The notes beneath the pieces were generated by a model, which did not search any database, was not told where the DNA came from, and was given only the letters and a program-made list of their open reading frames with translations. Below are positions 188 through 15,598 of a DNA stretch of 64,000 nt, in pieces; within the stretch, counting starts at the first letter, position 1; every line of letters begins with the position of its first letter. The DNA lies in contig OX459107.1 in NCBI GenBank assembly GCA_949775045.1, positions 15,865,679 through 15,929,678 of the forward strand, given 5' to 3'. The DNA comes from Metridium senile. Lineage: Eukaryota; Cnidaria; Anthozoa; Actiniaria; Metridiidae. A program made the position numbers and the translations under genes.

Positions 188-329
188 AGTAGTAGGGAAT
201 GGTATGTTCTGGCGCATTTTGCCGTGATTACCAAAAGCTGGATTTCGTGACATGATTTCATTGCGTGACACCACGGCAGGATCTACCAGAAGAATAATTT
301 CCCTATCAATCAAATCTTGGTTATACAAC

Positions 330-404: not shown

Positions 405-615
405 TTTCAATGCGATTAAAGATTTTTTATTCCTAAACATGACGTAAGTAGACGGGTATTCCCCTGTTACTAATGTACATGTTTGAACTTGCCCAAGGAT
501 GGGGGATTTCCCGATGACATCACCGAGGCAAGCCTAGACATGACTAATGGTTGGGGATTACCCTATGACTAATGGCTGGGGATTTCCCATTAAACAAAAT
601 TATATTAAAAATAGA

Positions 616-623
616 CTTAAAGA
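616..623 (+). promoter_or_regulatory. Class A (putative early) promoter motif, polymerase gene
   Basis: CTTAAAGA, 35 nt upstream of the polymerase ATG at 651, at the inner end of the left TIR. The same octamer at the same spacing precedes the three minus-strand genes at the right end. Confidence 0.75.
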
Positions 624-650
624 AATAACCCTTTAATATATTATAAAGAA

Positions 651-3600
651 ATGAGTGAAACAAAATCACATAAATCACACTCACGTTATACCAGTAATAG
701 TATGGCAACCAATAATATTATGGATCAGGCAGTGCCTGAGATCAACGTACCTATTATGAAACCGACAAAAGTATCGACGAAGGATGTAAACCAAAACCAG
801 GTTATATCTACCACGGATACTATACAAAAGAAATTAAATGAATTCGCAGACTGGATTCTATCTTATATTCCACCAGAAGTTAAGAAGTCAGTAAATGAAC
901 GTGTGGAAGCATTGAAGAAAACAGTAAACGATATTTATAACAGACCCAAGAAGCCAGAGGCTGTACAAAAGAAAGAGTCAGCAATGAAGGGTTTTCTAAC
1001 ATCGTATAGAATAAAAGGAGAGGTTAAGATGGATCCTAAAGTCTTCCTCCAAAAGAATAAGAACAATATCATAGAGACAGTTAACAAACAACAAAAGCCA
1101 ATCAAAATGAAGTTGCTACTAGAGTGTGAATTTTACAAAAAGCAGCCTAACAAAGAAGTGGAGTATACGTTTTGGCATTTCCATAGTAATATAATGATAA
1201 TTACACAAGCAACGGATATGGATGATGTTTACAAAATGTTGACTGAAAGTATATTAGAAAAGGTTAGTAATTTCCAAGATAGCGGGTCAGGCTGGATATT
1301 TAGTAGGGTGGTAAACTTGGATCTTCATATAGATAAGTACCAGCCTATAGCGGCAAAATCTTGGATTGAACTCCCACAGAAGCTCAAGTTGAAAAAAGCT
1401 ATTGTTAACCCAGAAAACGAGGATAATCAATGTTTCAAGTGGGCAGTTACAACAGCTATTTATCCAGCAAAGAGAGATTTAGAAAGGATTTCAAAAGCTG
1501 TGAAATCAAACGCTGAAAAATTCAACTGGGAGAATATCGAGTTTCCCGTACGAGTGGATGAAATAGGTAAATTTGAAATGAATAATCCAGAATATGGAAT
1601 AAACGTATACGGATATGTAAATGATCAAGTATATCCGGTTAGAATAAGTGAAAATAAAAGCAGGGAACAAACGATTAATCTACTCATGATCTCGAATGAT
1701 AAGACGAACCACTATTGTTGGATAAAAAATATTAGTAGACTATTAACCTCACAGATTACAAAACATACGGAAAAGAGGTATTATTGTGAAAGATGTCTTA
1801 ACTCGTTTAAAACAGAAAAGACCCTCAGTAAACATTCGGAATATTGTAAGAATCATGATGCGGTTAAAATAACGTTACCAAAACAAGGTACAACACTATC
1901 ATTTAAAAACTATAACCACTCTATGCGAGTACCCTTTGTAATATATGCAGACTTTGAATGCTTCACTGAGAGTATAGATACGAGTCAACCAGATGATGAA
2001 AAATCATATACTCAACAGTATCAAAAGCATAAGCCCTCTGGTTATTGTTATATGGTAAAATGCTATGATGATAATCTATATGAACCAAAAATATTCAGAT
2101 ATACTGCTAAGTCAGAGGATGAGGATATAGGACAAAACTTTGTGGAATCAATAGAAAAGACAGTTAGAAGTATATATACAAAATATCATTGCAACAAGAA
2201 GGTAAGAATGACTGACAAGGATAACAAAAACTATAATAAGGCTACCCACTGTCATATCTGTGAGGAGAAGTTAGATGGTGATAAAGTATTAGATCATGAC
2301 CATTTTACCGGGAAATATCGAGGGGCAGCACATAACGACTGTAATTTGAATTACAAGATACCGAAGCATATACCGGTGATATTTCATAATTTAGCAGGAT
2401 ATGATGCGCATTTATTTATCAAAAATCTAGGTGTTACACAAGGTAAAATAGATTGTATTCCAAACAATGAGGAGAAATATATCAGTTTCAAGAAAGAGAT
2501 AGTTGTAGATACTTTTGAAAACAAGGAAGGTAAAGTGTGTAATGTGAAAAGAGAAATACGATTCATTGACAGTTTAAAATTTATGGCTTCATCACTGGAT
2601 TCACTAGTTGGTAATATTACAGATTGTGGAAAATGTAAGACTTGCCTATGTGTAAAAGAGGATAAAAAATGTGGAAAGTGTAACCTATGTTTATTTGATA
2701 ATAAGCATTGTGAAAATCCATCTGCTGGAATGGCTACAAATCTAAGAAGGTTTTATAGAGATAAAAAGCTGAGACTATTATTGAGAAAAGGTGTTTATCC
2801 ATATGATTATGTCAACTCACCAGATAAATTAAATGAAACATCTCTACCTACAAAAGATGAATTTTATAGTAAGTTGAATAGTTGTGATATTTCAGATGAT
2901 GCCTACAAACATGCACAGGAAGTATGGAAAACATTCAAAATTAAGTCAATGCGTGATTATCATAATTTGTATCTTAAGAGTGACGTCATACTTTTAGCTG
3001 ATGTGTTTGAGACATTCAGAGATGTATGTATGGGAAATTATAAATTAGATCCATGTTGGTATTATACAGCTCCGGGATTATCTTGGGATGCTATGTTGAA
3101 AATGACAGGGGTTAATTTAGAACTACTAACAGATTCTGATATGCTACTTATGATAGAAAAAGGTATCCGTGGTGGAATTAGCATGATTAGCAAACGGTAT
3201 GCAAAAGCTAATAACAGATATATGAAATCATTTGATAAGAAGCAAAGATCAGTATACATCAAATATCTAGATGCTAATAATTTATACGGCTGGGCTATGT
3301 CCGAGAAACTACCAACTCATGGATTTAGATGGATGAAAAATAGTGAACTCAAACATTGGAAAAAGCATCCATGTATCTTAGAGGTTGATTTAGAGTATCC
3401 CGTTGAATTGCATAATCTTCATAATGAATATACTCTTGCACCTGAGAGAATAATGGTTAATAAAGTTGAAAAATTAATACCTAACCTAGAAAATAAGACT
3501 AAATATGTGGTTCATCATAAGACTCTGCAATTATATGAAAAACTAGGAATGAAAATAACGAAAATTCATAGAGGGATAACATTTCAGGAGTCTAAATGGT

Positions 3601-4505
3601 TGGAAAAATATATTGGTCTTAATACAGAACTTCGTACGAAGGCAAAAAATGATTTCGAAAAAGACTTTTTCAAACTTATGAACAACAGTGTATTTGGTAA
3701 GACTATGGAAAACATACGTAACAGACAAGACATTAGATTAGTAACAGATGAATCACAAACAGCAAAATTAATCAATCGACCTAATTATAAGAAACGCACG
3801 ATATTTTCAGAAAATCTAGCAGCCATTCATATGGGTAAAACAGAATTAATATTTAATAAGCCTATATACGTTGGGATGTCAATCTTAGATCTTTCAAAGA
3901 ATCTAATGTATGACTTTCACTATAATTATATCAAACCAAAATATGGAAACAAAGCAAATCTCTTATTTACAGATACCGATAGCCTTATGTATAATATAGA
4001 GACGGACGATTTTTATAAAGATATTGAGAAAGATATTGAGGATAAATTCGATACAAGCAATTATCCAGCAGATCATAATGGAATTAAAAATAGGATTAAC
4101 AAGAAGGTTATTGGAATGATGAAAGATGAAACAGCTGGTGTAGAGATAACAGAATTTGTAGGATTAAGATCTAAACTATATGCGTATAAGACAGATGATG
4201 AAAAAGTTGGAAAACGATGTAAAGGTGTTAAGAAATCGGTTGTTAAAAAGGATATAACATTCGAAGATTATAAAAATTGTTTATTCGAAGGGCAACAAAC
4301 ATTGAGAAAAATGAACGTTATTAGAAGTCATAAGCATCAAATATATACAGAAACGGTTAATAAAGTAGCTTTATCAAGAGATGATGACAAAAGAAATATT
4401 CAAGCAGATGGTATTCACACGCTTGCATACGGTTATAAAAATATTAATGAAAAAGTAATACATTCAAAAGATGTAAACAAAAAAATTGTAAACAAAAAAT
4501 TGTAA
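651..4505 (+). CDS. polB: Protein-primed family B DNA polymerase (pPolB)
   Basis: 1284 aa replicative polymerase of the element. Exonuclease motifs visible are DFECF near residue 433 (Exo I), HNLAGYDAHL near 578 (Exo II) and YHNLYLKSDVILLADVFE near 770 (Exo III). Polymerase motifs are YLDANNLYGW near 872 (motif A), KLMNNSVFGKTMEN near 1008 (motif B) and FTDTDSL near 1106 (motif C, with the two catalytic Asp). N-terminal of Exo I is a C2H2-like finger (YYCERC...H...C, about 374-396). Between Exo I and Exo II is a Cys/His treble-clef-like segment (HCHICEE...LDHDHFTG, about 533-560). Residues 659-687 form an extra Cys-rich insert (CGKCKTC...CGKCNLC). The first 350 residues are not recognisable and may hold the terminal protein. 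Full length and intact. The ATG is set by the CTTAAAGA box 35 nt upstream. Confidence 0.97.
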   Translation: MSETKSHKSHSRYTSNSMATNNIMDQAVPEINVPIMKPTKVSTKDVNQNQVISTTDTIQKKLNEFADWILSYIPPEVKKSVNERVEALKKTVNDIYNRPKKPEAVQKKESAMKGFLTSYRIKGEVKMDPKVFLQKNKNNIIETVNKQQKPIKMKLLLECEFYKKQPNKEVEYTFWHFHSNIMIITQATDMDDVYKMLTESILEKVSNFQDSGSGWIFSRVVNLDLHIDKYQPIAAKSWIELPQKLKLKKAIVNPENEDNQCFKWAVTTAIYPAKRDLERISKAVKSNAEKFNWENIEFPVRVDEIGKFEMNNPEYGINVYGYVNDQVYPVRISENKSREQTINLLMISNDKTNHYCWIKNISRLLTSQITKHTEKRYYCERCLNSFKTEKTLSKHSEYCKNHDAVKITLPKQGTTLSFKNYNHSMRVPFVIYADFECFTESIDTSQPDDEKSYTQQYQKHKPSGYCYMVKCYDDNLYEPKIFRYTAKSEDEDIGQNFVESIEKTVRSIYTKYHCNKKVRMTDKDNKNYNKATHCHICEEKLDGDKVLDHDHFTGKYRGAAHNDCNLNYKIPKHIPVIFHNLAGYDAHLFIKNLGVTQGKIDCIPNNEEKYISFKKEIVVDTFENKEGKVCNVKREIRFIDSLKFMASSLDSLVGNITDCGKCKTCLCVKEDKKCGKCNLCLFDNKHCENPSAGMATNLRRFYRDKKLRLLLRKGVYPYDYVNSPDKLNETSLPTKDEFYSKLNSCDISDDAYKHAQEVWKTFKIKSMRDYHNLYLKSDVILLADVFETFRDVCMGNYKLDPCWYYTAPGLSWDAMLKMTGVNLELLTDSDMLLMIEKGIRGGISMISKRYAKANNRYMKSFDKKQRSVYIKYLDANNLYGWAMSEKLPTHGFRWMKNSELKHWKKHPCILEVDLEYPVELHNLHNEYTLAPERIMVNKVEKLIPNLENKTKYVVHHKTLQLYEKLGMKITKIHRGITFQESKWLEKYIGLNTELRTKAKNDFEKDFFKLMNNSVFGKTMENIRNRQDIRLVTDESQTAKLINRPNYKKRTIFSENLAAIHMGKTELIFNKPIYVGMSILDLSKNLMYDFHYNYIKPKYGNKANLLFTDTDSLMYNIETDDFYKDIEKDIEDKFDTSNYPADHNGIKNRINKKVIGMMKDETAGVEITEFVGLRSKLYAYKTDDEKVGKRCKGVKKSVVKKDITFEDYKNCLFEGQQTLRKMNVIRSHKHQIYTETVNKVALSRDDDKRNIQADGIHTLAYGYKNINEKVIHSKDVNKKIVNKKL

Positions 4506-4529
4506 ACAAAAAAAGTAGTAAACAAAAAT

Positions 4530-5519
4530 TTAATTCAAAACACTATCAGGTGGTAGCTGTGTATCTTCTGGAACCGTTTGTAATTCCTCTCTAACAAAAG
4601 AACGTTTAGGGGCCCCTTCAGAAAGGAAATATAATACAGGTTGATCAGATGATACTATAGATCGAGATATATCATACATCTCCAACGACCAAATAGGGTC
4701 AGTAGCACGATGTTTATCACCACCTTCCTCCTCACCAGGAGCGTATAAATATCTAACTTTCACGCCAGCTGGTAATCTTTCTTCTTTCATACCAACAGGC
4801 CTCTTATATTTGAAATCTTTATGCTGCAGTTCTTTCATTTTTATCGATTCTGCAGGTTCTTTTCCAGTAATTCTTTTCACTTCACTATTAATAGATTTTA
4901 CTACATCAGGTAGTCTATTAACCCATTCACGAGATCTTTCATCTTCCATAAGCATTTCTTGAGCGTACTGATGACTAAAAAGCTTTTCAGCAATAGTTCT
5001 ATTAGCACGCTCTACCAAAGATTGTGCTTTATGATTTCCAGCTTCTCCTCGTTGAATTTTAATATTTTTATTTTTTAATACTTTTGTTAATTCACCCATA
5101 AATTCTGTACCTGGATCAACCATCATTGTTTTCGGCCAATTCAATCGACGGGAATAGATCCTTGTGAAAGCTTTAGTAACTTCTGTTGAGTACTTAGACG
5201 TCAAAGGCTCAGCATCAATATATCTACTAGCTATATCAACAACCACCAAAGCATATTTGTAGGTTTTTCTTTTCACAGTATCATGTGGTAAGAATAATAG
5301 ATCTGCTTGATGAATTTTGTTTGGTGTGAAAATATCCCAATGAGGTTTAGGAATATATTCGGGTTTTGATAAATATATCTGCCATAATGCTTGTTTTTCA
5401 AGCCATTTTTTTACAACATCTTTTTTGATATCTGCTGCATTTGATAGTTTGGAAATAGCAGAATATCCTTTCCAATAACCTTGTGGGCTATAATAATATT
5501 CTGATAATGTTTTGTTCAT
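4530..5519 (-). CDS. int: Retroviral-type DDE integrase
   Basis: 329 aa, counted from the ATG at 5519; the open frame extends 15 codons upstream but has no ATG there. The N-terminal ~60 residues end in a basic helical stretch. The RVE catalytic core follows: D73 in HQADLLFL, D135 in VDPGTEF and E170 in SLVERANRT, with 34 residues between the last two, close to the classic D,D-35-E spacing. The C-terminal 130 residues form a basic, beta-rich tail of the kind that binds DNA in this family. It would cut and join the TIR ends. It reads opposite to its neighbours. The 36-bp gap to the capsid gene holds both promoters, and the integrase side has only a degraded CTTATAAAAGA sequence about 30 nt upstream. 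Confidence 0.95.
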   Translation of the reverse strand: MNKTLSEYYYSPQGYWKGYSAISKLSNAADIKKDVVKKWLEKQALWQIYLSKPEYIPKPHWDIFTPNKIHQADLLFLPHDTVKRKTYKYALVVVDIASRYIDAEPLTSKYSTEVTKAFTRIYSRRLNWPKTMMVDPGTEFMGELTKVLKNKNIKIQRGEAGNHKAQSLVERANRTIAEKLFSHQYAQEMLMEDERSREWVNRLPDVVKSINSEVKRITGKEPAESIKMKELQHKDFKYKRPVGMKEERLPAGVKVRYLYAPGEEEGGDKHRATDPIWSLEMYDISRSIVSSDQPVLYFLSEGAPKRSFVREELQTVPEDTQLPPDSVLN

Positions 5520-5524
5520 AATAG

Positions 5525-5531
5525 GTATAAA
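5525..5531 (+). promoter_or_regulatory. Class B (putative late) promoter, major capsid gene
   Basis: GTATAAA, 31 nt upstream of the capsid ATG. Member of the series preceding every gene of the structural block. Confidence 0.75.
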
Positions 5532-5555
5532 TATATAATCTTTTATAAGATTATA

Positions 5556-6800
5556 ATGACACAATCAATTTCAGATAAGTTAGATGTAAATCGTGTTTAC
5601 AAACAAGCTTTTGGATTAAAAGCAGAGAAAACAGTAAATCGTGTAACATTCAACCCAAGCTCAGCAAATCCTGGTGAAACGTTGTATGTTCATATACCAA
5701 AGCTATCGGATAATGTTGTATTAGTTCCTGGTAGTGTAGGTCTTATTTTTAAATTAAACAAAGAAACTGGAGCTCATGCTAACAATACAGTTGTAAATAA
5801 TCTAGGACGAGCTCTTATTTCAAGAATGAGAGTTTTATACGGAGGTGAGATTTTACAAGATACACAACGTATTGATCTATATAACACATATTCCGATTTG
5901 TTTTTATTGAAAAACGAACGTGAAAATATGCTAAGAGAAGGTGTTTCATCGTCTAATATGCGAAAATTACGAACAGCTGCAGGTGATAAAGTAACGGCAG
6001 ATGCATCAGAAGTAGGGCTAGCAGCAGTTTATAGTGATAAATATAGAATACCTATTAATCATCCAATTCTTGATTCACATGGTGTGTTTTATCCAAAATC
6101 GTTAAGAAATACCCTATCCTTTGAAATTACACTTCCTGGAAGTTCGGAGATTACTATTACCAGCGATTCATCAAAATCATACGTGTATAGTCTATCAAAT
6201 ATTGAGCTTGAATATGAGTGTATTGTTAGTGATTTTCTAGCACGTGAAGCTCAAGCAGCTTATCAAGTTGGTAGAGGGTTCTATTATGAAAATATTCTTC
6301 TCCACAAGACATTCACAATTAATAAAGCCACAACATCGGTAATAAATGAGCATGTTAATATACCAAGACGATCTATGACAGGTATTTTGTGTTTGTTTAC
6401 TGAAGCATATGTTCTAGGTACAAGAGACTCAGAAAAATTTGTTAACCCAGATATTACTCAAGTAGATGTTAACGTGGATGGTATGCCAAATAAATTATAT
6501 TCGAAAGGAATGCTACCAACCGATTTTTGGAATTCTATTAGAGGTAGATTTGGTAAAACTGATAATTTAACCCAAAAAGATTTCTATTCTAATAAATTTG
6601 CTCTATGGGTTGATTTGAGAACATATCCTACTAATGATATTCATGGTAATGGGATGTTATTGAATAGCACAAAAGATGGAGTTAAACTAGAAATTAGAAG
6701 AAAAGTAGGTGGTGCTGGTAATATAACATGTTATATGTATGTTGTTGCTGATGCTCTTATGGAAGTTGAAAATAGTGATTTAAAATCAATTATGTATTAA
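5556..6800 (+). CDS. mcp: Major capsid protein, double jelly-roll type
   Basis: 414 aa, the size of Polinton major capsid proteins. The N-terminal region (TFNPSSANPGETLYVHIPKL, residues 29-48) and the strand-rich body with FVNPDITQVDVNVDG and a DGVKLEIRRKVGG segment near the C-terminus match the pattern of Polinton hexon-like proteins. These form pseudo-hexameric trimers of two jelly rolls and line the icosahedral shell. It sits next to the packaging ATPase, the usual morphogenesis neighbour. The frame is intact. The call rests on recognition of the family and on context; a structure prediction should show two stacked eight-strand barrels. Confidence 0.85.
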   Translation: MTQSISDKLDVNRVYKQAFGLKAEKTVNRVTFNPSSANPGETLYVHIPKLSDNVVLVPGSVGLIFKLNKETGAHANNTVVNNLGRALISRMRVLYGGEILQDTQRIDLYNTYSDLFLLKNERENMLREGVSSSNMRKLRTAAGDKVTADASEVGLAAVYSDKYRIPINHPILDSHGVFYPKSLRNTLSFEITLPGSSEITITSDSSKSYVYSLSNIELEYECIVSDFLAREAQAAYQVGRGFYYENILLHKTFTINKATTSVINEHVNIPRRSMTGILCLFTEAYVLGTRDSEKFVNPDITQVDVNVDGMPNKLYSKGMLPTDFWNSIRGRFGKTDNLTQKDFYSNKFALWVDLRTYPTNDIHGNGMLLNSTKDGVKLEIRRKVGGAGNITCYMYVVADALMEVENSDLKSIMY

Positions 6801-6801
6801 A
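6794..6801 (+). promoter_or_regulatory. Class B-like promoter, packaging ATPase gene
   Basis: GTATTAAA, 37 nt upstream of the ATG at 6831. It has one extra T compared with the consensus and overlaps the capsid stop codon. Confidence 0.45.
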
Positions 6802-6830
6802 AAGATTTTTAGTATTATAAAATATAATAA

Positions 6831-7457
6831 ATGGAAGAATTAAAAAGCGAAACACCATTTCACAGTATTATAACCGGTCCAACAAATTCAGGTAAAACAA
6901 AATATTTAGTCGATTTATTAAGAAGTTCATATCGGTATGTATTTGAATATATTGTATTAATATGCCCAACGTATTCAAGAAACTCAACGTACAAAGGCTT
7001 TGCTAATAACGATCCAAGATTTATTGTTTTATCACCTGATGCTGATAGTGTTGATGAGATCAATGAATTATTATCATGTTGTAAGGAATTGTTTTCAGGT
7101 CAGAACACATTAATAATTCTAGACGACTGTGCTTTTTCAAAGGAATTAAAACAACGGTCTAATAAGTTTATAAATTTAGCATTTTCAGGTAGACATGATA
7201 AGATATCAGTATGGGTATTAACACAACAGCTAACAGCCATAGCGAAACCGTTTCGTGATAATGTTAGTTGTATTATATCATTTTATAACCCAAATAAAAT
7301 ATCCAATCAGATTCTTTTTGACGAGTTTGGTGGTGATTTAGGTTTAGAAAATAAAAAACATTTTTTAGAAATACTAAAATCGGAAAAATATTCTAGAGTA
7401 TGCTTTTGTTTACGACATCCATATATATCATATGTAGAAATACCTGGAATGATATAA
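6831..7457 (+). CDS. A32-like genome-packaging ATPase
   Basis: 208 aa P-loop ATPase of the FtsK-HerA type that pumps genomes into capsids. Walker A is GPTNSGKT at residues 16-23. Walker B is LIILDD at 94-99, followed by the helix that begins CAFSKELKQRS. A sensor-like segment reads SVWVLTQQL near 130-138. The length is typical of Polinton and virophage ATPases. It lies 30 bp downstream of the capsid gene, same strand, and is intact. Confidence 0.93.
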   Translation: MEELKSETPFHSIITGPTNSGKTKYLVDLLRSSYRYVFEYIVLICPTYSRNSTYKGFANNDPRFIVLSPDADSVDEINELLSCCKELFSGQNTLIILDDCAFSKELKQRSNKFINLAFSGRHDKISVWVLTQQLTAIAKPFRDNVSCIISFYNPNKISNQILFDEFGGDLGLENKKHFLEILKSEKYSRVCFCLRHPYISYVEIPGMI

Positions 7458-7458
7458 A
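7452..7458 (+). promoter_or_regulatory. Class B promoter, 196-aa gene
   Basis: ATATAAA (within GATATAAAT), 30 nt upstream of the ATG at 7482, overlapping the ATPase stop codon. Confidence 0.55.
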
Positions 7459-7481
7459 TAAATAAAACTATATACTATTAT

Positions 7482-8072
7482 ATGACATCAATTCTCGATC
7501 AATATATGGATGATAATAAAATAGAAAAAGTGGAAAATGATGAGGTAATAGAAAAGAAACCAAAAAAGAAGCCGGATGTTAAAAAAGCCGATACAGAAAT
7601 TGAAGAAAAAAGAGAACAATTATCTATTCTTGCTGTTCTTGGAACTATTAAAACTTATACAGGAGTAAATATGAATTTGGGTGATGTTAAAAAGTTGTCT
7701 CAAAAAGATGTGGATAAATATTATAATAGATATCAAATTTTAATGGGTAATAAAGTAACAAACGGATTAGTTGATACTGCTATAGAAACAGCTGCCGAAT
7801 TAGTTTCATATGTAATAACTATTGATAATAAAAAGGAGCTTTGTAAAGATTTACAGAAAAATGAATTGGTAAAACAAGAGCTAAATAACCTTGCTGGATT
7901 TGTTATTTTGAAAGGTGGAAGAACTGTTGCTTTAGCAAGTGGTTTACTTCAAATAGCAAAACATATTAAAATTAGTAATAATGATAATTTTGAGAAGAAT
8001 ATTCATAAAACTATTGAGCAATCTCTTGAGCAGACTGTTGAAACTGTTGAGCAGACTCTTGAGCACTCTTGA
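7482..8072 (+). CDS. Polinton protein of unknown function, C-terminus cut by repeat slippage
   Basis: 196 aa, family not recognised. Residues 1-50 are charged (runs of Lys/Glu), followed by a mixed helical body with a semi-hydrophobic stretch (NLAGFVILKGGRTVALASG) near 140-160. The tail is a Glu/Gln/Thr/Val repeat (LEQTVETVEQTLEHS) encoded by tandem repeats that continue to about 8155, beyond the stop. A 10-bp unit (CTCTTGAGCA) is duplicated at the stop and shifts the frame. The position in the structural block and a class B promoter suggest a virion or assembly role, which is an inference. Confidence 0.75.
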   Translation: MTSILDQYMDDNKIEKVENDEVIEKKPKKKPDVKKADTEIEEKREQLSILAVLGTIKTYTGVNMNLGDVKKLSQKDVDKYYNRYQILMGNKVTNGLVDTAIETAAELVSYVITIDNKKELCKDLQKNELVKQELNNLAGFVILKGGRTVALASGLLQIAKHIKISNNDNFEKNIHKTIEQSLEQTVETVEQTLEHS

Positions 8073-8158
8073 GCAGACTGTTGAAACTGTTGAGCAGACT
8101 ATTGAGCACTCTTAAGCAGACTCTTGAGCAGACAATAGAAACTCTTGAGCATAAATAA
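8008..8158 (+). repeat. Short tandem repeats at the end of the 196-aa gene
   Basis: Imperfect units around GAGCAGACTGTTGAAACT, interrupted by 10-bp duplications. The first part is coding and the rest (8073-8158) is downstream of the stop, so the array has slipped out of frame. Confidence 0.8.
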
Positions 8159-8183
8159 TAATATTATTAAATATTAATAAATC

Positions 8184-8190
8184 GTATAAG
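8184..8190 (+). promoter_or_regulatory. Class B promoter, 129-aa gene
   Basis: GTATAAG, 34 nt upstream of the ATG at 8218. Confidence 0.6.
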
Positions 8191-8217
8191 AATTTATTAA
8201 TATACTTGTATTATAAG

Positions 8218-8607
8218 ATGACAGAAAACAATGATAAATTAGTTGATGAACAAATAACTAAGGAACCTGAAAAAGTTCAAAAACAAAAAGATCCAAAAAA
8301 AGTTGCTGCTGGTAGAAAACTGGCTGAATATCATAAGAAAGCTAAAAAAGCTCTTGAACTAGAGAATAATCCTGATGATGACGAACAATCTAGTTCAAAC
8401 TGGATGCCTGAGATATCACTAACAACAGGATTGTCATTAGTAGGAATAACATTGACAGCTGTAGATTTATATTTCAGATGGAGGAAAACTAACAATAGAA
8501 ATATTACTCCAACAAAACCTAAAATAGAACACAATAAAGAAAACGATGATGAAGTAAAACCTGTTGTTAAATCAAAAATCCCTGCTCCAATAATAGGTAT
8601 GGAATAA
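8218..8607 (+). CDS. Small single-membrane-span Polinton protein
   Basis: 129 aa from the ATG at 8218; the frame is open four codons further up but without an ATG. The N-terminal half is basic and helical, with KDPKKVAAGRKLAEYHKKAKKA, a Lys/Ala-rich stretch that I recall from proteins of this element group. After an acidic linker comes one hydrophobic span (ISLTTGLSLVGITLTAVDLYF, about 66-85), then a charged tail. Probably a minor virion or membrane-associated protein. The biochemical role is unknown. Confidence 0.75.
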   Translation: MTENNDKLVDEQITKEPEKVQKQKDPKKVAAGRKLAEYHKKAKKALELENNPDDDEQSSSNWMPEISLTTGLSLVGITLTAVDLYFRWRKTNNRNITPTKPKIEHNKENDDEVKPVVKSKIPAPIIGME

Positions 8608-8611
8608 AATG

Positions 8612-8618
8612 GTATAAA
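8612..8618 (+). promoter_or_regulatory. Class B promoter, 76-aa gene
   Basis: GTATAAA, 35 nt upstream of the ATG at 8647. Confidence 0.7.
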
Positions 8619-8646
8619 TAATAAATACTTATAATATATTATAACA

Positions 8647-8877
8647 ATGTCTAATACAACAGAAAACAAATTAGTTAAAATAGCAACTGATGCCAGCGTA
8701 GTAATTGGAATAGCTTCCCTTATTGGCTATGTTGGTAAAAAAACTATGAAAGAATCATTTATTAGTGATCCTAGTTCAAGTTTGTCAAATTATGGTAAGT
8801 GGGTTCTTGTTCTTGGAGGATCTATGTATCTGAAGGAATATCTTGAAGATAAAAAAATTCTACCAAAACCTTTTTAA
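8647..8877 (+). CDS. 76-aa protein with two hydrophobic segments
   Basis: Small protein, family not recognised. Two hydrophobic stretches (about 16-29, SVVIGIASLIGYVG, and 50-61, KWVLVLGGSMYL) are separated by a polar loop, and the tail is charged. It has its own upstream class B box and lies between two other small membrane-type genes, so I infer a small virion membrane or assembly component. Confidence 0.65.
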   Translation: MSNTTENKLVKIATDASVVIGIASLIGYVGKKTMKESFISDPSSSLSNYGKWVLVLGGSMYLKEYLEDKKILPKPF

Positions 8878-8882
8878 AACAG

Positions 8883-8889
8883 GTATAAA
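8883..8889 (+). promoter_or_regulatory. Class B promoter, 140-aa gene
   Basis: GTATAAA, 29 nt upstream of the ATG at 8912 and just after the preceding stop codon. Confidence 0.7.
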
Positions 8890-8911
8890 AAATAATGAAT
8901 ATATATAACAT

Positions 8912-9334
8912 ATGGCAACGATTGCAGTAATGATAGCAGGCGCTGTTTTAAATGCAACAGCTTTTGTTGGGGGTAGTTATCTAGCTAAATCCTTATCATC
9001 TAATGGTTCTCATTCTGATGAAGAAAAAATAAGACATGACAAAGCTCTTGAAAAATATCAACATGATATGGGAGAATTTGAAAAGAAAAGACAACAATAC
9101 CAGGATTGGCTTCAATCACAATATGAAAAAAAGAAATTGGCGGATAGTAATTTGAATGATACTGATTATGCGTTTAAACTATACTCTAAAGCTCATCCTG
9201 ATTTGAGTTTTGATAATAAACAACCGCAATTTTCAAATTATTATAAACCTAGTAATAAACAAAAGCAATATGAGATGATTTATGTTGGTGGGGGTATGAT
9301 GACTGTAGGTTATTTGGCATCTAAATTTTTATAA
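8912..9334 (+). CDS. 140-aa Polinton protein with N-terminal membrane segment
   Basis: The N-terminus is a hydrophobic, Ala-rich segment (ATIAVMIAGAVLNATAFVGG, residues 2-21). A charged coiled-coil-like region (about 35-75, many Lys/Glu/Gln) follows, then a conserved-looking FSNYYKP motif near 110, and a second hydrophobic C-terminus (MIYVGGGMMTVGYLASKFL). I recall the same layout from other animal Polinton-type elements, with no assigned function. Confidence 0.7.
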   Translation: MATIAVMIAGAVLNATAFVGGSYLAKSLSSNGSHSDEEKIRHDKALEKYQHDMGEFEKKRQQYQDWLQSQYEKKKLADSNLNDTDYAFKLYSKAHPDLSFDNKQPQFSNYYKPSNKQKQYEMIYVGGGMMTVGYLASKFL

Positions 9335-9363
9335 GAAACTATTTAAATTCTAAATATAAAATC

Positions 9364-9370
9364 GTATAAA
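9364..9370 (+). promoter_or_regulatory. Class B promoter, 451-aa gene
   Basis: GTATAAA, 39 nt upstream of the ATG at 9403, the longest spacing in the series. Confidence 0.65.
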
Positions 9371-9402
9371 AAACTATTTAGTATATATAAATTATAAACT
9401 AA

Positions 9403-10758
9403 ATGGAAGGTGAAGATTTTAATCCAATAGATGAAGGTTCTGTTGATATTAATGAACCAATTACTGATGATGATTTAGCCGAACTAATACCAAAGCAAAA
9501 AGAAACAGAGCAAACATGGTGGGAAAGAACTAAAGAAAGGTTTAATAAAAGAGGTATAACAAGAGAACGTGGGTATAGATTATTTGAAAATGCTAATGAA
9601 AGTAATGAAGATTGGAATAAAAGTATAAGAGAGGAACTAGAAATGGAGGATTTATCCAAACATAAATTAACAATAATAGAAGAAGCAAAAAATATTATAA
9701 AAGAAAAATATCCTGAATGGAATGAAAATAATTCTAAATTTATATATAATATTGATAAGGATGGTAATGTATTACTTAGAATCAATAAACTCGGATCAAA
9801 GGAATACTATCTCAATGATTTAAGTGAAGCTCCAAAAACAATTACTGATAATATAGGTTGGTCTCAGGATCATATTGATATGTATAATAATGCTAAAGAC
9901 AATCTCGATAAATATTACCCAGAAAACACGATTAGTAGAGAAAATGGATTTGATATTAGAGAAGATGAATCCGGTATTATTGAAGTTTATGATAATGATA
10001 AACGTAGATGGTATAAAATATCAACAAAAGTTGGGAATGAAACTTCTTCTCTTATTGGGAGACAAACTAATAAAATCAAGGAATCCCTAGGTAGGTCAGC
10101 AAGGGTAATTTTAAAAGATACTATAAGAATTATGGATGAAACTGATAAAAAATTAACCACAATATACCCAGAAGTAGAAGTTATTAATGAAAAAATAGAA
10201 TCAGAAACAGAGAGCATAAATTCTAATAAAGATGAAATTGATGATTTAGAATCAGAATTTGAATTATATACTGGTTCGCAAAGGAAAAAAGATGCTATTA
10301 AATTAAAAAGAGATAATCTTTTAGAAACAAATAATCAGCTAATTGATGAGAGAGAAGCGTTAATCTCTAAAAGAAAGAGTTTAGAAGAAAAAATACATGA
10401 ACTAGAAAATAAAAACGAACTAATAGAGGAAAAACTACCTTTGAAAGAACGTGTAAAACTTATTTTAAAAAAGTACGGTCTAACAGTAACAGGTATTGCT
10501 CTAGCAGTTGGTACTATTATAGGAGTAATCGTATCTAATTTAAAATCAGGTCTTACATCTGTTGCTAAGGGTGTTGGTAACGGTTTGAAAACACTTGGGA
10601 AAAAATTGGGTGAAATATTACCAGGTATGGTTGGTGCTATAGCATCTTTTATTTTCAGAACTGCAGGTGAAGTGGTAGGTTTCCTTGCTAAAAACGCATG
10701 GCTTCTTATTATTGGTGTGGTTTTGTATGTGGTGGAGAGGTATAAAAACAAAAAATGA
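9403..10758 (+). CDS. Coiled-coil protein with Gly/Ala-rich hydrophobic C-terminus
   Basis: 451 aa. The acidic N-terminus is followed by a Trp-containing charged region (WWERTKERF, about 39-47), a globular middle, and a long coiled coil (about 255-345) with regularly spaced Leu/Ile in Lys/Glu-rich sequence. Residues ~355-445 are strikingly different: Gly/Ala/Leu/Ile-rich amphipathic and hydrophobic helices ending in a probable transmembrane helix (WLLIIGVVLYVVE) and a basic tail. I recall this C-terminal module from animal Polinton-type elements. It could anchor to or disrupt membranes, or be an internal virion protein; this is inferred. Intact. Confidence 0.75.
   Translation: MEGEDFNPIDEGSVDINEPITDDDLAELIPKQKETEQTWWERTKERFNKRGITRERGYRLFENANESNEDWNKSIREELEMEDLSKHKLTIIEEAKNIIKEKYPEWNENNSKFIYNIDKDGNVLLRINKLGSKEYYLNDLSEAPKTITDNIGWSQDHIDMYNNAKDNLDKYYPENTISRENGFDIREDESGIIEVYDNDKRRWYKISTKVGNETSSLIGRQTNKIKESLGRSARVILKDTIRIMDETDKKLTTIYPEVEVINEKIESETESINSNKDEIDDLESEFELYTGSQRKKDAIKLKRDNLLETNNQLIDEREALISKRKSLEEKIHELENKNELIEEKLPLKERVKLILKKYGLTVTGIALAVGTIIGVIVSNLKSGLTSVAKGVGNGLKTLGKKLGEILPGMVGAIASFIFRTAGEVVGFLAKNAWLLIIGVVLYVVERYKNKK
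10740..10746 (+). promoter_or_regulatory. Class B promoter, minor capsid gene
   Basis: GTATAAA, 31 nt upstream of the ATG at 10771. It lies inside the last codons of the upstream gene, so the spacing appears to be kept despite the overlap. Confidence 0.7.
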
Positions 10759-10770
10759 TTATATATTATA

Positions 10771-11403
10771 ATGGTAATCTTGTATATTGAAAAAACAAAA
10801 GCTGATGAAACGATTTGGTTGAAAAATCCTATAACAAATAGTACAAAAATGTCACTAATTTATTGTAATTTTGTTAATCAATTATACAACCTTGAAAAAG
10901 AAGGGACGATTTCAGATGGAGAAGGTAATGTTTTACTTCGTATTCCAAAGGGAAATTATACAACAAGCTCTTTTAATAGTGTGATTGATAAAGCTGTTTT
11001 TCTTGGTGAGAAACCAGTTTCCATAAGCAAATCCATTCTTACCCCAAAGGTAAATATTAAATTAAATGATAGTTTAGCAAAATTATTAAAACTTGAAACA
11101 AGTCTTAAAAAAGATTCTAAAAATGTTATAAATATTGATAAAATTCTTGAATCAGTATACGTACATTGTAATCTGGTTGATTCTACACAAGTTTTATTCA
11201 AAAATAATTATTCACAAATATTGGCATATGTTAATGTGGACAATGTTGGGGAGAAAATAGCTTATGAACCTCTTAATAGTTTGTATACACAAATAAAAAA
11301 CGATGATTATATCAGTAGTATTCGGTTATGGGTAGCTGATTATAATAATAATATTATTCTTTCTGGGGTATATCCAATGAAAATGGTAATAGAAATCGTT
11401 TAA
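10771..11403 (+). CDS. Candidate minor capsid (penton-type jelly-roll) protein
   Basis: 210 aa, rich in predicted beta strands. The C-terminal part with VYVHCNLVDSTQVLFKN, a Val/Asp-rich strand and the ending SGVYPMKMVIEIV resembles the penton-like minor capsid proteins of Polintons, which plug the five-fold vertices. The length fits a single jelly roll. Context supports it: same strand, structural block, class B promoter. I recognise the pattern but cannot run a structure comparison here. Confidence 0.65.
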   Translation: MVILYIEKTKADETIWLKNPITNSTKMSLIYCNFVNQLYNLEKEGTISDGEGNVLLRIPKGNYTTSSFNSVIDKAVFLGEKPVSISKSILTPKVNIKLNDSLAKLLKLETSLKKDSKNVINIDKILESVYVHCNLVDSTQVLFKNNYSQILAYVNVDNVGEKIAYEPLNSLYTQIKNDDYISSIRLWVADYNNNIILSGVYPMKMVIEIV

Positions 11404-11404
11404 A
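11398..11404 (+). promoter_or_regulatory. Class B-like promoter, 205-aa gene
   Basis: GTTTAAA, 31 nt upstream of the ATG at 11429; one base off the consensus. It overlaps the stop of the preceding gene. Confidence 0.5.
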
Positions 11405-11428
11405 AATAAAATTATTTGGTATAGTATA

Positions 11429-12046
11429 ATGGAAAATCATGACGTATTGTATCCTGAGCTGCCAAATTATAGTGATGGTGAAAACTTCAGATTACGCAAG
11501 GTAAATGAGGTTATGTCTAAGCTAGAAGCTGAAGTCAAACATTATGAAAACGTTAGGAAAAAATATGCTAAGACACGTGGAATATTTCATAAAACAGCAG
11601 TCGTAAGTGGAATCTTTTCTGTACTTTTTACTGGTTCTGGTGTAACTACAAGCTTAACAGGTGCTGGAGCTGTCATAGGAGTCCCTTTAGCGGGGGTTGG
11701 TGGTATCCTCGGTTTAGTAGCATCTAGTTGTACAATTATAACGAAAAAACTTACTAAGAAGGTAGCAAAACATGAAAATACTATTCAGCTCGCAAAAGCA
11801 AAACAAAATAGTATATATGACCTGGTGTCAAAAGCCTTGTCTGATAACAAGATTGATGAAAGAGAATTTGAACTAATTATGGGTGAGCTACAAAAGTATC
11901 AAACGTTGAAGAGTGATATTAGATCTGTACGGAATAATGAGTTTTTAAAAAAGGGTCCAGACCTCGATATAAAAAAAATAAGAGAGGAGATGAGAGTGGA
12001 GATGAGAAAGGAAATTGTGGATCAGCTCATAAATCAAAAGAAGTAA
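11429..12046 (+). CDS. 205-aa Polinton protein with Gly-rich hydrophobic hairpin
   Basis: The N-terminal tail has LYPELPNYSD. Next comes a helical region with RKVNEVMSKLEAEVKHYENV (about 23-42), then two hydrophobic Gly/Ala/Val/Ser-rich segments (about 56-95, e.g. GAGAVIGVPLAGVGGILGLV), then KKLTKKVAKHENTIQLAKAK and a charged helical C-terminus. I recall this as a very common uncharacterised family in animal Polinton-type elements. The hairpin suggests membrane insertion. A slippery heptamer (TTTAAAA, 11944-11950) lies in the last fifth, and the -1 frame after it is open to 12117. I cannot tell whether that frame is used. Confidence 0.75.
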   Translation: MENHDVLYPELPNYSDGENFRLRKVNEVMSKLEAEVKHYENVRKKYAKTRGIFHKTAVVSGIFSVLFTGSGVTTSLTGAGAVIGVPLAGVGGILGLVASSCTIITKKLTKKVAKHENTIQLAKAKQNSIYDLVSKALSDNKIDEREFELIMGELQKYQTLKSDIRSVRNNEFLKKGPDLDIKKIREEMRVEMRKEIVDQLINQKK

Positions 12047-12133
12047 GTATTTCGTTTGAAACAACTCCTATGGGTGGATTTACGTATAAATTACGATATG
12101 ACAAAAATAAATATTAACACTAATCTTATAAAC

Positions 12134-12140
12134 GTATAAA
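12134..12140 (+). promoter_or_regulatory. Class B promoter, 476-aa gene
   Basis: GTATAAA, 35 nt upstream of the ATG at 12169. Confidence 0.7.
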
Positions 12141-12168
12141 AGTTAATCTCATCTTATAATTATATAAG

Positions 12169-13599
12169 ATGAAATTTATAGATTTCGAACAAAAGTATCC
12201 AAACTATAACACCAATCGTTTTACCAATGTAAATGGTAAAGTTCGATTTATTTTCAATGGAGACGAGTATGATCCTTTTGATGAAAATGGTAATTTGGTA
12301 AAAAAAGTTTACACATTTCCTAGTTGGAATGGTCACACATATACACCAGAAAATATAGCCGACTTTCTTGAATCTAAATCTAAGTTTCCAAAAGCTGTTA
12401 TGCTTACAAATACAAAATATCCAATTCCAGCTGTAGGTCTTAGTGATAACCCGTCTGATATTAAAAGATTATTAACCACATTAAAAATATTTGTAACTCC
12501 AGGTGAAAGTTTTTCTTTTACTATTAAAAATATTTTCGAATTAACACCTCCAACTATAAAAAATACATCTGATTGGACTATTTGGATGGAAGATCCAAAT
12601 TTTAAAAATTGGTCTCAACAGTTGAATTTTGCTGTCTGGTGTGCTACCTCTGGTTGTGGTGTTTCTTTTAACCTTATTGAACCTGATACACAAATAGCAT
12701 CTATATTAAGGTTCCATGTTATTTTCACGATAAGATCTATTTTAAACACTCTACAGGTTATACTACCATGGGATAATAACTTTGTTTGGAATGGTACTCG
12801 ATATAATAAAGGCGCTTTAGTAAAGTTGTGTAACGAGTTTGGTATTGATTCAACAAACCCTGATTTTAGATTCAAGGGTACATCTACAAACTCTGATGTA
12901 TTTGGATTTCATTATACTAGTCCGTACAAGGATTCACTAACCGGATATTACAAGTCAACTCACAAGGATAGAAGCCAATATAATTGGTTTATACCACAAA
13001 ACGGTGTTGGTATAACAAAAGCAGGATTGTCACGATTAAATCAAAGTATAGAAGCGTTTGTTTATTGTGTTTTAGGCGCTCAAGTACAAACACGATCATC
13101 AATTATAGGCGATTCAGGGGCTAATACAGAAACACAAGAAGTATTCTTAAAATTATTTGAAAGTTCAGTAATTGAGAGGGATATTTCGAAAAGTATACAA
13201 CGATATCAGTTTGCAATTCAAAATGCAAAAGTAAGGCTTGATTTAGCAATATCACCGGGTTGTTGGTTACTGCCATCTATGTTAATTATAAATACAGAAT
13301 CAACTATTGGTTATAACAATAAGCTTCAGAGAGCAACAGCTGATATGAAATTTGGTGTCAATAATATTAATAATGAAACTAAATCTACTGGTTCAAAACA
13401 TAATATGGGTGATTCAAAAGTTAACCTACCACATAAAACAGATGATAAATCTAAAAAAGAAATCAATAATAAAAAAGATATTACAAACTCCTTTACTAAA
13501 CCAAGTGTAAAACCTTCACCAACATCTAATCGACATGATACTAATCTAGCAGTCGTTACGGTTGGTGTCGCGGGTATTGTTTGGTATATGTTTCGATAG
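12169..13599 (+). CDS. Conserved 476-aa Polinton structural-type protein
   Basis: No known domain, but I recognise the sequence type from animal Polinton-type elements. The N-terminal half contains NRFTNVNGKVRFIFNGDEYDPF and the short motif YPIPAVGL. The centre has WSQQLNFAVWCATSGCG (near 147-163) and GLSRLNQSIEAFVYCVLGAQ, both hydrophobic with conserved-looking Cys/Trp. Residues ~400-455 are a polar Lys/Asn/Ser/Thr linker, and the last 20 residues form one transmembrane helix (AVVTVGVAGIVWYMF). It is thus a C-terminally anchored protein, last gene of the rightward structural block. Virion surface or assembly roles are possible. Intact. Confidence 0.75.
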   Translation: MKFIDFEQKYPNYNTNRFTNVNGKVRFIFNGDEYDPFDENGNLVKKVYTFPSWNGHTYTPENIADFLESKSKFPKAVMLTNTKYPIPAVGLSDNPSDIKRLLTTLKIFVTPGESFSFTIKNIFELTPPTIKNTSDWTIWMEDPNFKNWSQQLNFAVWCATSGCGVSFNLIEPDTQIASILRFHVIFTIRSILNTLQVILPWDNNFVWNGTRYNKGALVKLCNEFGIDSTNPDFRFKGTSTNSDVFGFHYTSPYKDSLTGYYKSTHKDRSQYNWFIPQNGVGITKAGLSRLNQSIEAFVYCVLGAQVQTRSSIIGDSGANTETQEVFLKLFESSVIERDISKSIQRYQFAIQNAKVRLDLAISPGCWLLPSMLIINTESTIGYNNKLQRATADMKFGVNNINNETKSTGSKHNMGDSKVNLPHKTDDKSKKEINNKKDITNSFTKPSVKPSPTSNRHDTNLAVVTVGVAGIVWYMFR

Positions 13600-13822
13600 A
13601 TACAACCGGCACAGCTGTGCCGTGACGTCATAATAAAAATATCTGAAGGTCGTCACGGTTGACACAAAAGGGAAACCCCCTTCTAATTACATCAAAATTA
13701 AATATCATAATATGGTATAAACAAATGAAGCTATATATAATTGTACCACACGGATAGCTTATATTAATATATTAGTAATCTGTTTTTGCTTATAAAAAGC
13801 CAAGATAATTATTATCCTAGCT
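13600..13822. other. Intergenic gap at the end of the structural block
   Basis: Two oppositely oriented gene blocks converge here. It contains an orphan GTATAAA at 13715-13721 followed by an AT-rich leader and an ATG with only ten codons before a stop. Short GTCACGG-type inverted repeats near 13610-13665 may be 3'-end structure. Confidence 0.5.
13715..13721 (+). promoter_or_regulatory. Orphan class B promoter motif
   Basis: GTATAAA identical to those before the structural genes, but no reading frame of useful length begins in the next 60 nt. It may be a relic of a lost gene or drive a noncoding transcript antisense to the NUMOD-like gene. Confidence 0.4.
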
Positions 13823-14137
13823 TTACTCAAGTTTTTTATTAGCCCTAAGGCTTTTAGCTGTAATAGCGTCTTCTGGAAGCTCGTTATTAGGTATAAATGT
13901 AAATTTGTATCTATTACCATCCTTTTTAGATATACCGCTTTTGCAATTGTTTTTACCTTCAGAACACATCTTTATAATACCAGCATTAATATTTAAATGC
14001 TGTTGACATGCGTACATACTGTTATAATACAAGACTTCATTGGTGTTAACATTTACCGCTTTTACACATTTCCTATTTTGATGATTAAATTTTGAAAATG
14101 AATAATCCCTAGTCTTAGCTGATTTTTTATTTTCCAT
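13823..14137 (-). CDS. NUMOD1-like DNA-binding protein
   Basis: 104 aa. Residues ~24-85 (KCVKAVNVNTNEVLYYNSMYA, then CQQHLNINAGIIKMCSEGKN and YKFTFI) show the pattern of nuclease-associated modular DNA-binding domains (NUMOD1): a beta hairpin on 'V-x-N-x-x-T', a Ser/Ala helix, then a helix-turn-helix recognition segment. No GIY-YIG or HNH nuclease motif is attached, so it is probably a stand-alone DNA-binding regulator. It has a class A promoter and lies next to the TBP-like gene, hence the suggestion of an early regulatory role. Family assignment is by pattern only. Confidence 0.6.
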   Translation of the reverse strand: MENKKSAKTRDYSFSKFNHQNRKCVKAVNVNTNEVLYYNSMYACQQHLNINAGIIKMCSEGKNNCKSGISKKDGNRYKFTFIPNNELPEDAITAKSLRANKKLE

Positions 14138-14164
14138 TTGGTTATAATTTATTATATAACCATG

Positions 14165-14172
14165 TCTTTAAG
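14165..14172 (-). promoter_or_regulatory. Class A promoter, NUMOD1-like gene
   Basis: CTTAAAGA on the minus strand, 35 nt upstream of the ATG at 14137. Confidence 0.7.
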
Positions 14173-14187
14173 CCTTAATGATTTTTA

Positions 14188-15012
14188 CTATATTTTTTTA
14201 AAATCATTTAAAATTTCCTTAATTTCATTATCAACATTCTTAATTTTACTATAGTTATTATATATAATATCAATAATGTAATTATATGCTGATCTAATTT
14301 GTTTAAAGTTATTAGCACCAGTAATCATAACACAACCACGCTCAAAAACGAAAATTGATATATCCTTTTCATCCTTGTAATTATATTTAATATCTACTGA
14401 TGCATGTATAACTGGATCATAAAAACAGTTGGCATTTTTATCTAATAAAACCTGGTATAGTTCATTTCTATCAAGTAAAAAATTAAGATTAAAATTACTA
14501 TTAATCATTACAATATTAAAATTATATATTTGATCAATAGTTAATTTACTTGCATCGCTTATAAATAACATATCTATTATTTTTTTTGTTTTTGGATTAT
14601 AAACAGCGATTACCTTTATTAACTCATGACATAAAATATTAATAGCTTCATAAAAATCTTTAATTTGGCGACACCCAGTAAGTTGAATAGCACCATTCCT
14701 AAAAAGTTTAATATTAATATTTTTATCTTCTGATACCTGTACTATAATACTGGCTTGGTTATAGAAGGAAACTTGTCCTTTATTTTTCTTGTTTTTACTA
14801 TTTTTAATATTCTTTATTGGTTTAATAATAGTTCTATTAATAACAGTATGTTTAACACCAACAATCCTATTTTTAAAAAGTTTTAAATACTTACCAATGT
14901 TTTCTAAATTAAAAAATATATCAAATTTGCCTGTTATTGTCATAGTTGATATTTTTAATTCCTCTGGAAGAATTGTTGTATCAAACTTTTGAATTTGTAT
15001 TTTATTATTCAT
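14188..15012 (-). CDS. TATA-binding-protein-like transcription factor
   Basis: 274 aa with two TBP-type repeats. Lobe 1 covers about residues 20-135: STMTITGKFDIFFNLENI, a lysine-rich loop at 62-78, then SIIVQV and IKLFRNGAIQLTGCR (101-115), the counterpart of the TBP 'lIFsSGKmvvTGAk' strand pair, then a helix. Lobe 2 covers about 164-255: FNIVMINSNFNLNFLLDR, YDPVIHASVDIKY and ISIFVFERGCVMITGANN (218-235), then the closing helix. TBP bends TATA boxes and nucleates transcription complexes. Large nucleocytoplasmic DNA viruses encode similar proteins, but TBP is not part of the usual Polinton gene set as I know it. It carries a class A promoter and could act on the element's own TATA-like boxes; this is inferred. 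The DNA-intercalating Phe residues cannot be assigned with certainty by eye. Confidence 0.85.
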   Translation of the reverse strand: MNNKIQIQKFDTTILPEELKISTMTITGKFDIFFNLENIGKYLKLFKNRIVGVKHTVINRTIIKPIKNIKNSKNKKNKGQVSFYNQASIIVQVSEDKNINIKLFRNGAIQLTGCRQIKDFYEAINILCHELIKVIAVYNPKTKKIIDMLFISDASKLTIDQIYNFNIVMINSNFNLNFLLDRNELYQVLLDKNANCFYDPVIHASVDIKYNYKDEKDISIFVFERGCVMITGANNFKQIRSAYNYIIDIIYNNYSKIKNVDNEIKEILNDFKKI

Positions 15013-15039
15013 ATTATATAATTATACTATATTATTATT

Positions 15040-15047
15040 TCTTTAAG
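15040..15047 (-). promoter_or_regulatory. Class A promoter, TBP-like gene
   Basis: CTTAAAGA on the minus strand, 35 nt upstream of the ATG at 15012. Confidence 0.75.
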
Positions 15048-15106
15048 TGTATTTAGTTTCGTTTATTTAAATTTTATAAACATCATCATCACTACAACTA
15101 GAAAAA

Positions 15107-15562
15107 TTAAATAACTAGTGTTAAAAAAGAATCATCACTAGTATCATTACTAACAACATCATTGGCCCTAAAAAAATAATTACCACTAACAACATCATTA
15201 CCATTAACAACCTCATTACTACTATCAGAATAATCAATATATTTAAAAGAATCTTGTTTAATTTTGAAATAAATCATATATATATGATTGTTATCATATA
15301 ATTTATACTTTAGATCAAAATTAACTTTACTAACAGTACAAGATTTACAATTTACTATACTTTTCTTAAGTACTTTTACATATTTAATACCAATAATTTT
15401 TTTAGGACTATACTCTAACAAAAAAGGTGATTGTGGTAACCATTCTATTAGGCATACGCTTTTTAATTCTTTTAATAAAACTGATTTTTCATTTATCACC
15501 AGAATTGAAAAAAACTCATATATTCCACATCCTTTACAAACTACAACATCACCAATATTCAT
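15107..15562 (-). CDS. Unknown 151-aa protein, first gene at the right end
   Basis: Not recognised. The N-terminal half (IGDVVVCKGCGIYEFFSILVI then KSVLLKELKS and KIIGIKYVKVLKK) alternates short hydrophobic strands with charged turns, like a small SH3-like barrel; this is a guess. Four Cys (CKGC and CKSC pairs) could bind metal. The C-terminal 40 residues are low-complexity Asn/Asp/Ser/Val. It is transcribed inward from the class A motif at the right TIR edge, the mirror of the polymerase gene, so it is probably expressed early. Confidence 0.7.
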   Translation of the reverse strand: MNIGDVVVCKGCGIYEFFSILVINEKSVLLKELKSVCLIEWLPQSPFLLEYSPKKIIGIKYVKVLKKSIVNCKSCTVSKVNFDLKYKLYDNNHIYMIYFKIKQDSFKYIDYSDSSNEVVNGNDVVSGNYFFRANDVVSNDTSDDSFLTLVI

Positions 15563-15590
15563 TTCTATATACTTATACTATATATTTATA

Positions 15591-15598
15591 TCTTTAAG
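15591..15598 (-). promoter_or_regulatory. Class A promoter at the inner edge of the right TIR
   Basis: CTTAAAGA on the minus strand, 36 nt upstream of the ATG at 15562; the TIR-borne twin of 616-623. Confidence 0.75.

Follow-up and report, generated by a model that had tools for sequence, protein, structure and literature searches.

The 64,000-nt stretch of Metridium senile DNA analysed here (the window; contig OX459107.1, forward-strand positions 15,865,679 to 15,929,678) contains a Polinton-type element of 15,839 bp at window positions 188-16026. Polintons are widespread virus-like elements of animals. All 15 genes of this one have a TATA-like box that begins 29-39 nt upstream of the start codon (mean 33.5, standard deviation 3.0). 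The box reads CTTAAAGA upstream of genes for a polymerase-like protein and putative regulators, and GTATAAA or a close variant upstream of a ten-gene capsid block. From these sequence patterns, we interpret the two boxes as probable early and late core promoters, a reading to which we assign a probability of roughly 0.6.

An earlier note, made from the window sequence, had placed CTTAAAGA 35, 36, 35 and 35 nt upstream of four genes, and the exact sequence is indeed found at all four: the polB-like gene (box at 616-623, + strand, within the left terminal inverted repeat, TIR), the right terminal gene g151 (15591-15598, - strand, the same site in the right TIR), the gene for a protein resembling the TATA-binding protein (TBP; 15040-15047, - strand) and a NUMOD-like gene (14165-14172, - strand). 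In dinucleotide shuffles of the same 60-nt upstream stretches, CTTAAAGA occurred on average upstream of 0.003 of the four genes (maximum 1).

The capsid block likewise bears out the note's second claim, of GTATAAA or a one-base variant 29-39 nt upstream of all ten genes. The exact motif precedes six: the major capsid protein (MCP) gene (5525-5531, -31), g76 (8612-8618, -35), g140 (8883-8889, -29), g451 (9364-9370, -39), g210 (10740-10746, -31) and g476 (12134-12140, -35), all on the + strand. The other four have GTATTAA (ATPase gene, 6794-6800, -37, overlapping the MCP stop), ATATAAA (g196, 7452-7458, -30, overlapping the ATPase stop), GTATAAG (g133, 8184-8190, -34, with the start taken as ATG 8218, moved from TTG 8206) and GTTTAAA (g205, 11398-11404, -31, overlapping the g210 stop), also on the + strand. 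Across 2000 shuffles, matches with at most one mismatch averaged 1.8 of ten genes (maximum 6), and exact matches averaged 0.13 (maximum 3). The integrase gene, absent from the earlier note, has TTATAAA at -29 (5542-5548, - strand), back to back with the MCP box in a 36-bp space common to both. When an unbiased k-mer scan was confined to the ten capsid genes, TATAAA at 7/10 was reached in 0/100 shuffles and GTATAAA at 6/10 in 1/100.

We compared these boxes with those of related elements in the same genome (389 Mb), which carries at least 138 MCP-matching loci, some of them broken: at least 101 from a first search and 37 new loci of a group that we call family B, the latter among 44 family-B rows of a second search (both searches scored 101 of 177 candidates). 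The sequences compared were the capsid blocks of nine loci (L001-L009), left and right element pieces, 20 polB upstreams, 20 regions around TBP matches, nine right ends of family-B copies, plus six MCP regions. L010 and L017 yielded no polB start, and L080 and L082 no terminal gene. Capsid counts cover 83 starts, from the window and eight fetched blocks; L008 (MCP 89%) was dropped for its broken genes, and starts not found in the fetched pieces and an extra gene, x270, of L001, L002 and L007 were excluded. Three scans of IMG/VR (TBP, MCP and a TBP alignment) returned no relatives, so the comparison rests on one genome.

Across these 83 starts, the capsid box varies with the family rather than with the gene. 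GTATAAA is found at 16/28 starts in the window's own family (window, L009, L001). In a second family (L002, L003, L007), ATATAAA takes its place (14/25, GTATAAA 2/25), and in family B (L004-L006) the box is ATTTAAA (15/30, GTATAAA 0/30), frequently followed by G. ATTTAAA also stands at -35 or -36 upstream of all six additional family-B MCP genes compared. Unbiased scans of family B gave a box level reached in 0/100 shuffles at each of the three loci; L007 was mixed, with six letters reached in 0/100 but TATATA near the start codon ranked top and seven letters reached in 9/100. The family-wise change of letters is also visible where the box sits in or at the end of the preceding reading frame. 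Boxes that differ together as a set are the trace expected of a changing common reader, and this pattern supports a real core-promoter code whose reader would have changed. L007 itself combines a distant-type MCP (65%) with capsid genes of the L002 type, an arrangement that suggests MCP exchange between families; MCPs at this identity level occur at 13 further loci.

The early box, by contrast with this set-wise variation, is largely kept in other families as CTTAAAG(A/G). Counted over distinct upstream sequences, CTTAAAGA is exact in 6/6 and 3/3 polB upstreams of two types, in 6/7 TBP upstreams, and in 2/2 NUMOD upstreams of the L002/L007 type. Within one base, it is present in 7/7 TBP upstreams, in 5/6 NUMOD upstreams of the first type (1/6 exact), and in 9/10 family-B polB and terminal starts (5/10 exact). 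Between subfamilies, the polB spacer from box to start codon is altered, with the box and its distance of 35 unchanged. A first impression that NUMOD and polB of the L002/L007 type had no CTTAAAGA was dropped, the first ATG being judged the wrong start; counted from a start in agreement with other polB proteins (MSNNIM/MANNIM), the box of polB in this type lies at -36, a placement that depends on a start-codon choice made once the box had been seen. In the same type, polB and the right terminal gene have a common promoter and first codons (L011, L012, L016; L020, L021, L025), as though the TIR extended into the coding region.

A number of observations weigh against the early/late assignment. 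Within the window, the CTTAAAGA boxes of polB and g151 are one site within the TIRs (offset 428, counted from either outer end); four independent early sites are thus rejected in favor of three, for which an 8-mer common to all at one offset arises in 2/3000 shuffles. Among the four one-base capsid variants, those of ATPase, g196 and g205 run over the preceding stop codon and so obtain TAA for free, and one exact box, that of g210, lies inside the end of the preceding reading frame, g451. The element's + strand carries 11 GTATAAA, 6 of them at box places, and its - strand 4. Over the whole window, both words show only a mild excess: CTTAAAGA occurs 9 times against 4.0 expected (8/100 shuffles reach 9), and GTATAAA 32 times against 20.7 expected (1/100 shuffles). 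Unbiased motif discovery with shuffled controls, which the earlier note had proposed, is only moderate when 14 window genes are taken together: in 200 shuffles, CTTAAAGA at 4 equals the shuffle maximum of 4, and GTATAAA at 6 falls below a maximum of 7. Because this window-only scan is less decisive and the 64-kb excess is mild, the copies elsewhere matter.

Those copies bring difficulties of their own. They are related, so pair counts among them are not independent. Unbiased scans were borderline at L003 (5/100 shuffles), weak at L001 (7-10/100) and not significant at L002 alone (33-37/100 shuffles reach the level). In further family-B copies, genes other than MCP are less regular, with exact ATTTAAA at 0/4 ATPase genes that have a plain start. 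Conservation of the box above its flanks is modest: likeness to the window is higher in the box in 7/9 genes of the second group (sign test p 0.09) and 8/10 of family B (p 0.055); with the box shifted by one base, a shift picked after the conservation profile had been seen, these become 8/9 (p 0.020) and 9/10 (p 0.011). CTTAAAG is missing from left pieces L010 and L018; as to terminal genes, that of L081/L083 has no CTTAAAG-type box, and that of L027/L028 has a box two bases off. Family-B g205, a capsid-block gene, carries CTTAAAGA.

The presence of the TBP-like gene is a further point of this kind. It was found near 36/76 close-family MCPs and 0/25 others checked (the 37 further family-B copies lie outside this check), so the boxes need no TBP in cis. 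TBP as a necessary capsid-box reader is accordingly rejected as a general rule, the gene being missing near most capsid genes checked, including those of families that keep the boxes. Together with the lack of a Pfam match to any RNA polymerase family among the 15 element proteins scanned, this weakens the earlier note's picture of a transcription program made autonomous by a self-encoded TBP.

The note's claim that motif class divides by gene type holds cleanly for two families, the window's own and the ATATAAA one: the split is 4/4 versus 10/10 in the former, and CTTAAAG at -27 to -44 is found at 0/53 capsid-block starts outside family B. It does not hold in family B, where early and late boxes are one letter apart or merged; besides g205, the polB and terminal genes there carry either CTTAAAGA or TTTAAAGA near -27, the latter resembling the family's capsid box. 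Two further cases blur the division. In two copies without TBP, a 177-aa terminal gene is preceded by TATAAAGA, which is two bases off (0/2 within one base), and the NUMOD-like neighbor of a distant TBP copy (48%; L068, L070, L071) has GTATAAAGA. That distant TBP-like gene has no CTTAAAGA within one base upstream and no intact capsid gene around it.

This blurring is what would be seen if there were one class only, a generic TATA-like box read by host TBP, with CTTAAAGA, GTATAAA, ATATAAA and TTTAAAG as drifted or gene-wise variants that carry no timing meaning. The near-identity or identity of the family-B classes, the mixed forms TATAAAGA and GTATAAAGA, and the roughly equal distance of all boxes fit such an account, which survives best among the alternatives. 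We nevertheless consider it unlikely, as it does not account for the gene-type split in the window's family, the 0/53 outside family B, or the CTTAAAG core retained before TBP, NUMOD and polB genes through subfamily divergence.

It is less probable still that the boxes imitate promoters belonging to a giant DNA virus of the same host, by which the element would be transcribed in the manner of a virophage. We know of no giant virus of this host, and neither of two known giant-virus motifs searched for is enriched in the 15 upstreams: TCTA is in 2/15 (shuffle mean 3.2) and AAAATTGA in 0/15. TCTA is the late motif that mavirus and type-4 endogenous mavirus-like elements (EMALEs) have in common with their helper, other EMALE types having other motifs (PMC8547959). 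Like these virophages, the window element is an integrated small virus with a double jelly roll (DJR) capsid whose promoter motifs vary by type (PMC8547959); unlike them, it has two boxes of other sequence and no known helper. Finally, we regard as very improbable that TAA stops and AT-rich spacers in tightly packed genes yield TATAAA-like words without promoter function: an element of ~70% AT, stop overlaps at 3/10 capsid-block boxes with one more box in coding sequence, and modest conservation over flanks all lean that way, yet 6/7 capsid boxes free of stop overlap are exact GTATAAA, shuffles of the same letters do not reproduce the pattern, and the letters shift as a group from family to family, including at boxes overlapping a reading-frame end. 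A chance motif in an AT-rich element is rejected by the shuffles and the family-wise box change, to which flank conservation adds modest support.

If the boxes are early and late core promoters, each would seat a TATA-type initiation complex on host RNA polymerase II. The textbook spacing from a TATA-type box to the start site is about 25-31 nt, which would put start sites no more than ~10 nt from the start codon and leave transcripts nearly leaderless. CTTAAAGA would be read first, by host factors, since the TBP-like gene itself sits behind CTTAAAGA, and the copy in each TIR would direct inward transcription of the adjacent terminal gene, on one side polB. A reader particular to each family would act on the capsid boxes in a second phase. 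Where present, the giant-virus-type TBP-like protein, predicted to have two TBP repeats and the saddle fold, would be the best candidate helper of this phase, though an optional one because other families checked have no TBP-like gene.

An alternative candidate reader is the family-B right terminal protein, which may be a regulator. This protein and family-B polB have a common Rho_N/SAP-like start (L013-L015 with L022-L024; L075-L079, L081, L083), followed in the terminal protein of L022-L024 by CPHG/CxxC repeats that we take to be zinc-ribbon-like. We can sketch, tentatively, a two-stage code in which host factors read CTTAAAGA in the TIRs and at regulators, and a captured giant-virus TBP, or elsewhere another element-encoded DNA-binding protein such as the Rho_N/SAP and zinc-ribbon-like terminal protein, opens the capsid genes, the whole-set capsid box having been rewritten at least twice along with its reader. 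This fuller scheme is doubtful, and clearly less probable than the early/late assignment itself.

The window element is a Polinton-type integrated virus-like element, with TIRs of hundreds of base pairs and AGTAGT...ACTACT ends, an rve integrase, an A32 ATPase and an MCP with a DJR predicted fold. The 6-bp flanks where a target-site duplication would lie read ATCATC and TCATCA, the left flank being a TCA repeat. Inverted-repeat comparison places the TIR arms at 188-640 (+) and 15574-16026 (-), with 98% identity. From the outer end to the final base of CTTAAAGA (offsets 428-435), the arms have one mismatch, and they differ from the next base on. The inner end of TIR identity, offset 435 in both arms, is therefore the 3′ end of the box, and the promoter box seems to be the inner limit of the TIR, one box being supplied to both terminal genes.

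Inward from the left TIR lies the polB-like gene (651-4505, +; 1284 aa), whose product we tentatively take to be a protein-primed DNA polymerase B from its motifs. It has no polymerase match in Pfam, PHROG, NCBIfam or PDB sequences, and an endonuclease VII-like stretch (Endonuclease_7-like) is found at residues 531-565 (phrog_423, 8e-07). PF03175 matches other loci of the genome and not the window polB (among 90 of 226 candidates scored); those loci have open frames of ~1100-1470 aa and are perhaps other Polintons. The integrase gene (4530-5519, -, start ATG 5519; Pfam rve 5.6e-09, above cut-off) is followed by genes for the 414-aa MCP (5556-6800, +) and the 208-aa A32-type packaging ATPase (6831-7457, +; Pfam Pox_A32 2.1e-13, above cut-off). 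A capsid relative, P0099, named after the sea anemone Actinostola, shows 77% identity over 78% of the query. The capsid block ends with g476 (12169-13599, +; no family found), and no capsid protease or penton protein had a Pfam match among the 15 proteins scanned. Beyond it are the NUMOD-like gene (13823-14137, -; 104 aa, with a weak Pfam match below cut-off), the giant-virus-type TBP-like gene (14188-15012, -; 274 aa, predicted to form a full two-repeat TBP saddle) and g151 (15107-15562, -; 151 aa, no family found). A longer NUMOD relative (L029 326-964, as oriented) has an HNH_3 endonuclease domain (2.4e-14), so that the window's 104-aa version, which has no HNH_3 match, may be a remnant. 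The genome also carries its own TBP gene in four exon-like pieces, which we take to be animal-like.

Nucleocytoplasmic large DNA viruses (NCLDVs) encode their own RNA polymerase. The element resembles them in that motif classes follow gene type, as in NCLDV early and late promoters (PMC5294985); it differs in the motif sequences and in the absence of an RNA polymerase family from the Pfam scan described above. In beta- and gammaherpesviruses, late genes have a TATT box that a viral TBP recognizes (PMC4893493, PMC12529657). As there, a core box would mark a late class of structural genes here and a TBP-like protein is element-encoded. Unlike the herpesvirus TATT, the box here is TATAAA or TTTAAA, the TBP-like gene sits behind the early box and is missing near most capsid genes checked, and no other late factors were identified in the window element. 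Herpesvirus-type TATTWAA is not enriched (4/15 upstreams versus a shuffle mean of 3.3). TATA-binding proteins are also mentioned in mirusvirus-like elements of an alga (PMC10675990).

AGTAGT ends are a Polinton end motif (PMC8097293), and MELD viruses have been described as animal elements in which genes for polB and integrase occur alongside virion proteins like those of poxviruses or megaviruses (PMC11071296). With Polintons/Mavericks and MELD viruses as presented there, the window element has in common its AGTAGT TIRs, rve integrase, A32 ATPase, DJR MCP and size of about 16 kb (PMC8097293, PMC11071296). It is unlike Polintons/Mavericks in its giant-virus-type TBP-like gene and in a polB-like protein unmatched by PF03175, and the nearest match to the predicted fold of its MCP is an NCLDV capsid protein. 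We found no description of Polinton promoter classes in the open-licence papers searched. TATA boxes are unmentioned in the searched text of PMC11071308, PMC4028283, PMC10120064, PMC8097293 and PMC11071296; promoters and TBP are unmentioned in PMC11071308, PMC4028283 and PMC10120064, and PMC10328495 mentions promoters in other contexts only and TBP not at all.

How Polinton capsid genes are switched on is thus not described in the open-licence literature that we found. The at least 138 MCP-matching loci of this genome, with differing capsid boxes and with or without a TBP-like gene, amount to a natural experiment in which the same genes at the same spacing carry letters that change set-wise. 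If the boxes are used, transcripts should begin almost at the start codon, which is a sharp prediction. Furthermore, a giant-virus-type TBP in a 16-kb element suggests that genes have passed between giant viruses and Polintons.

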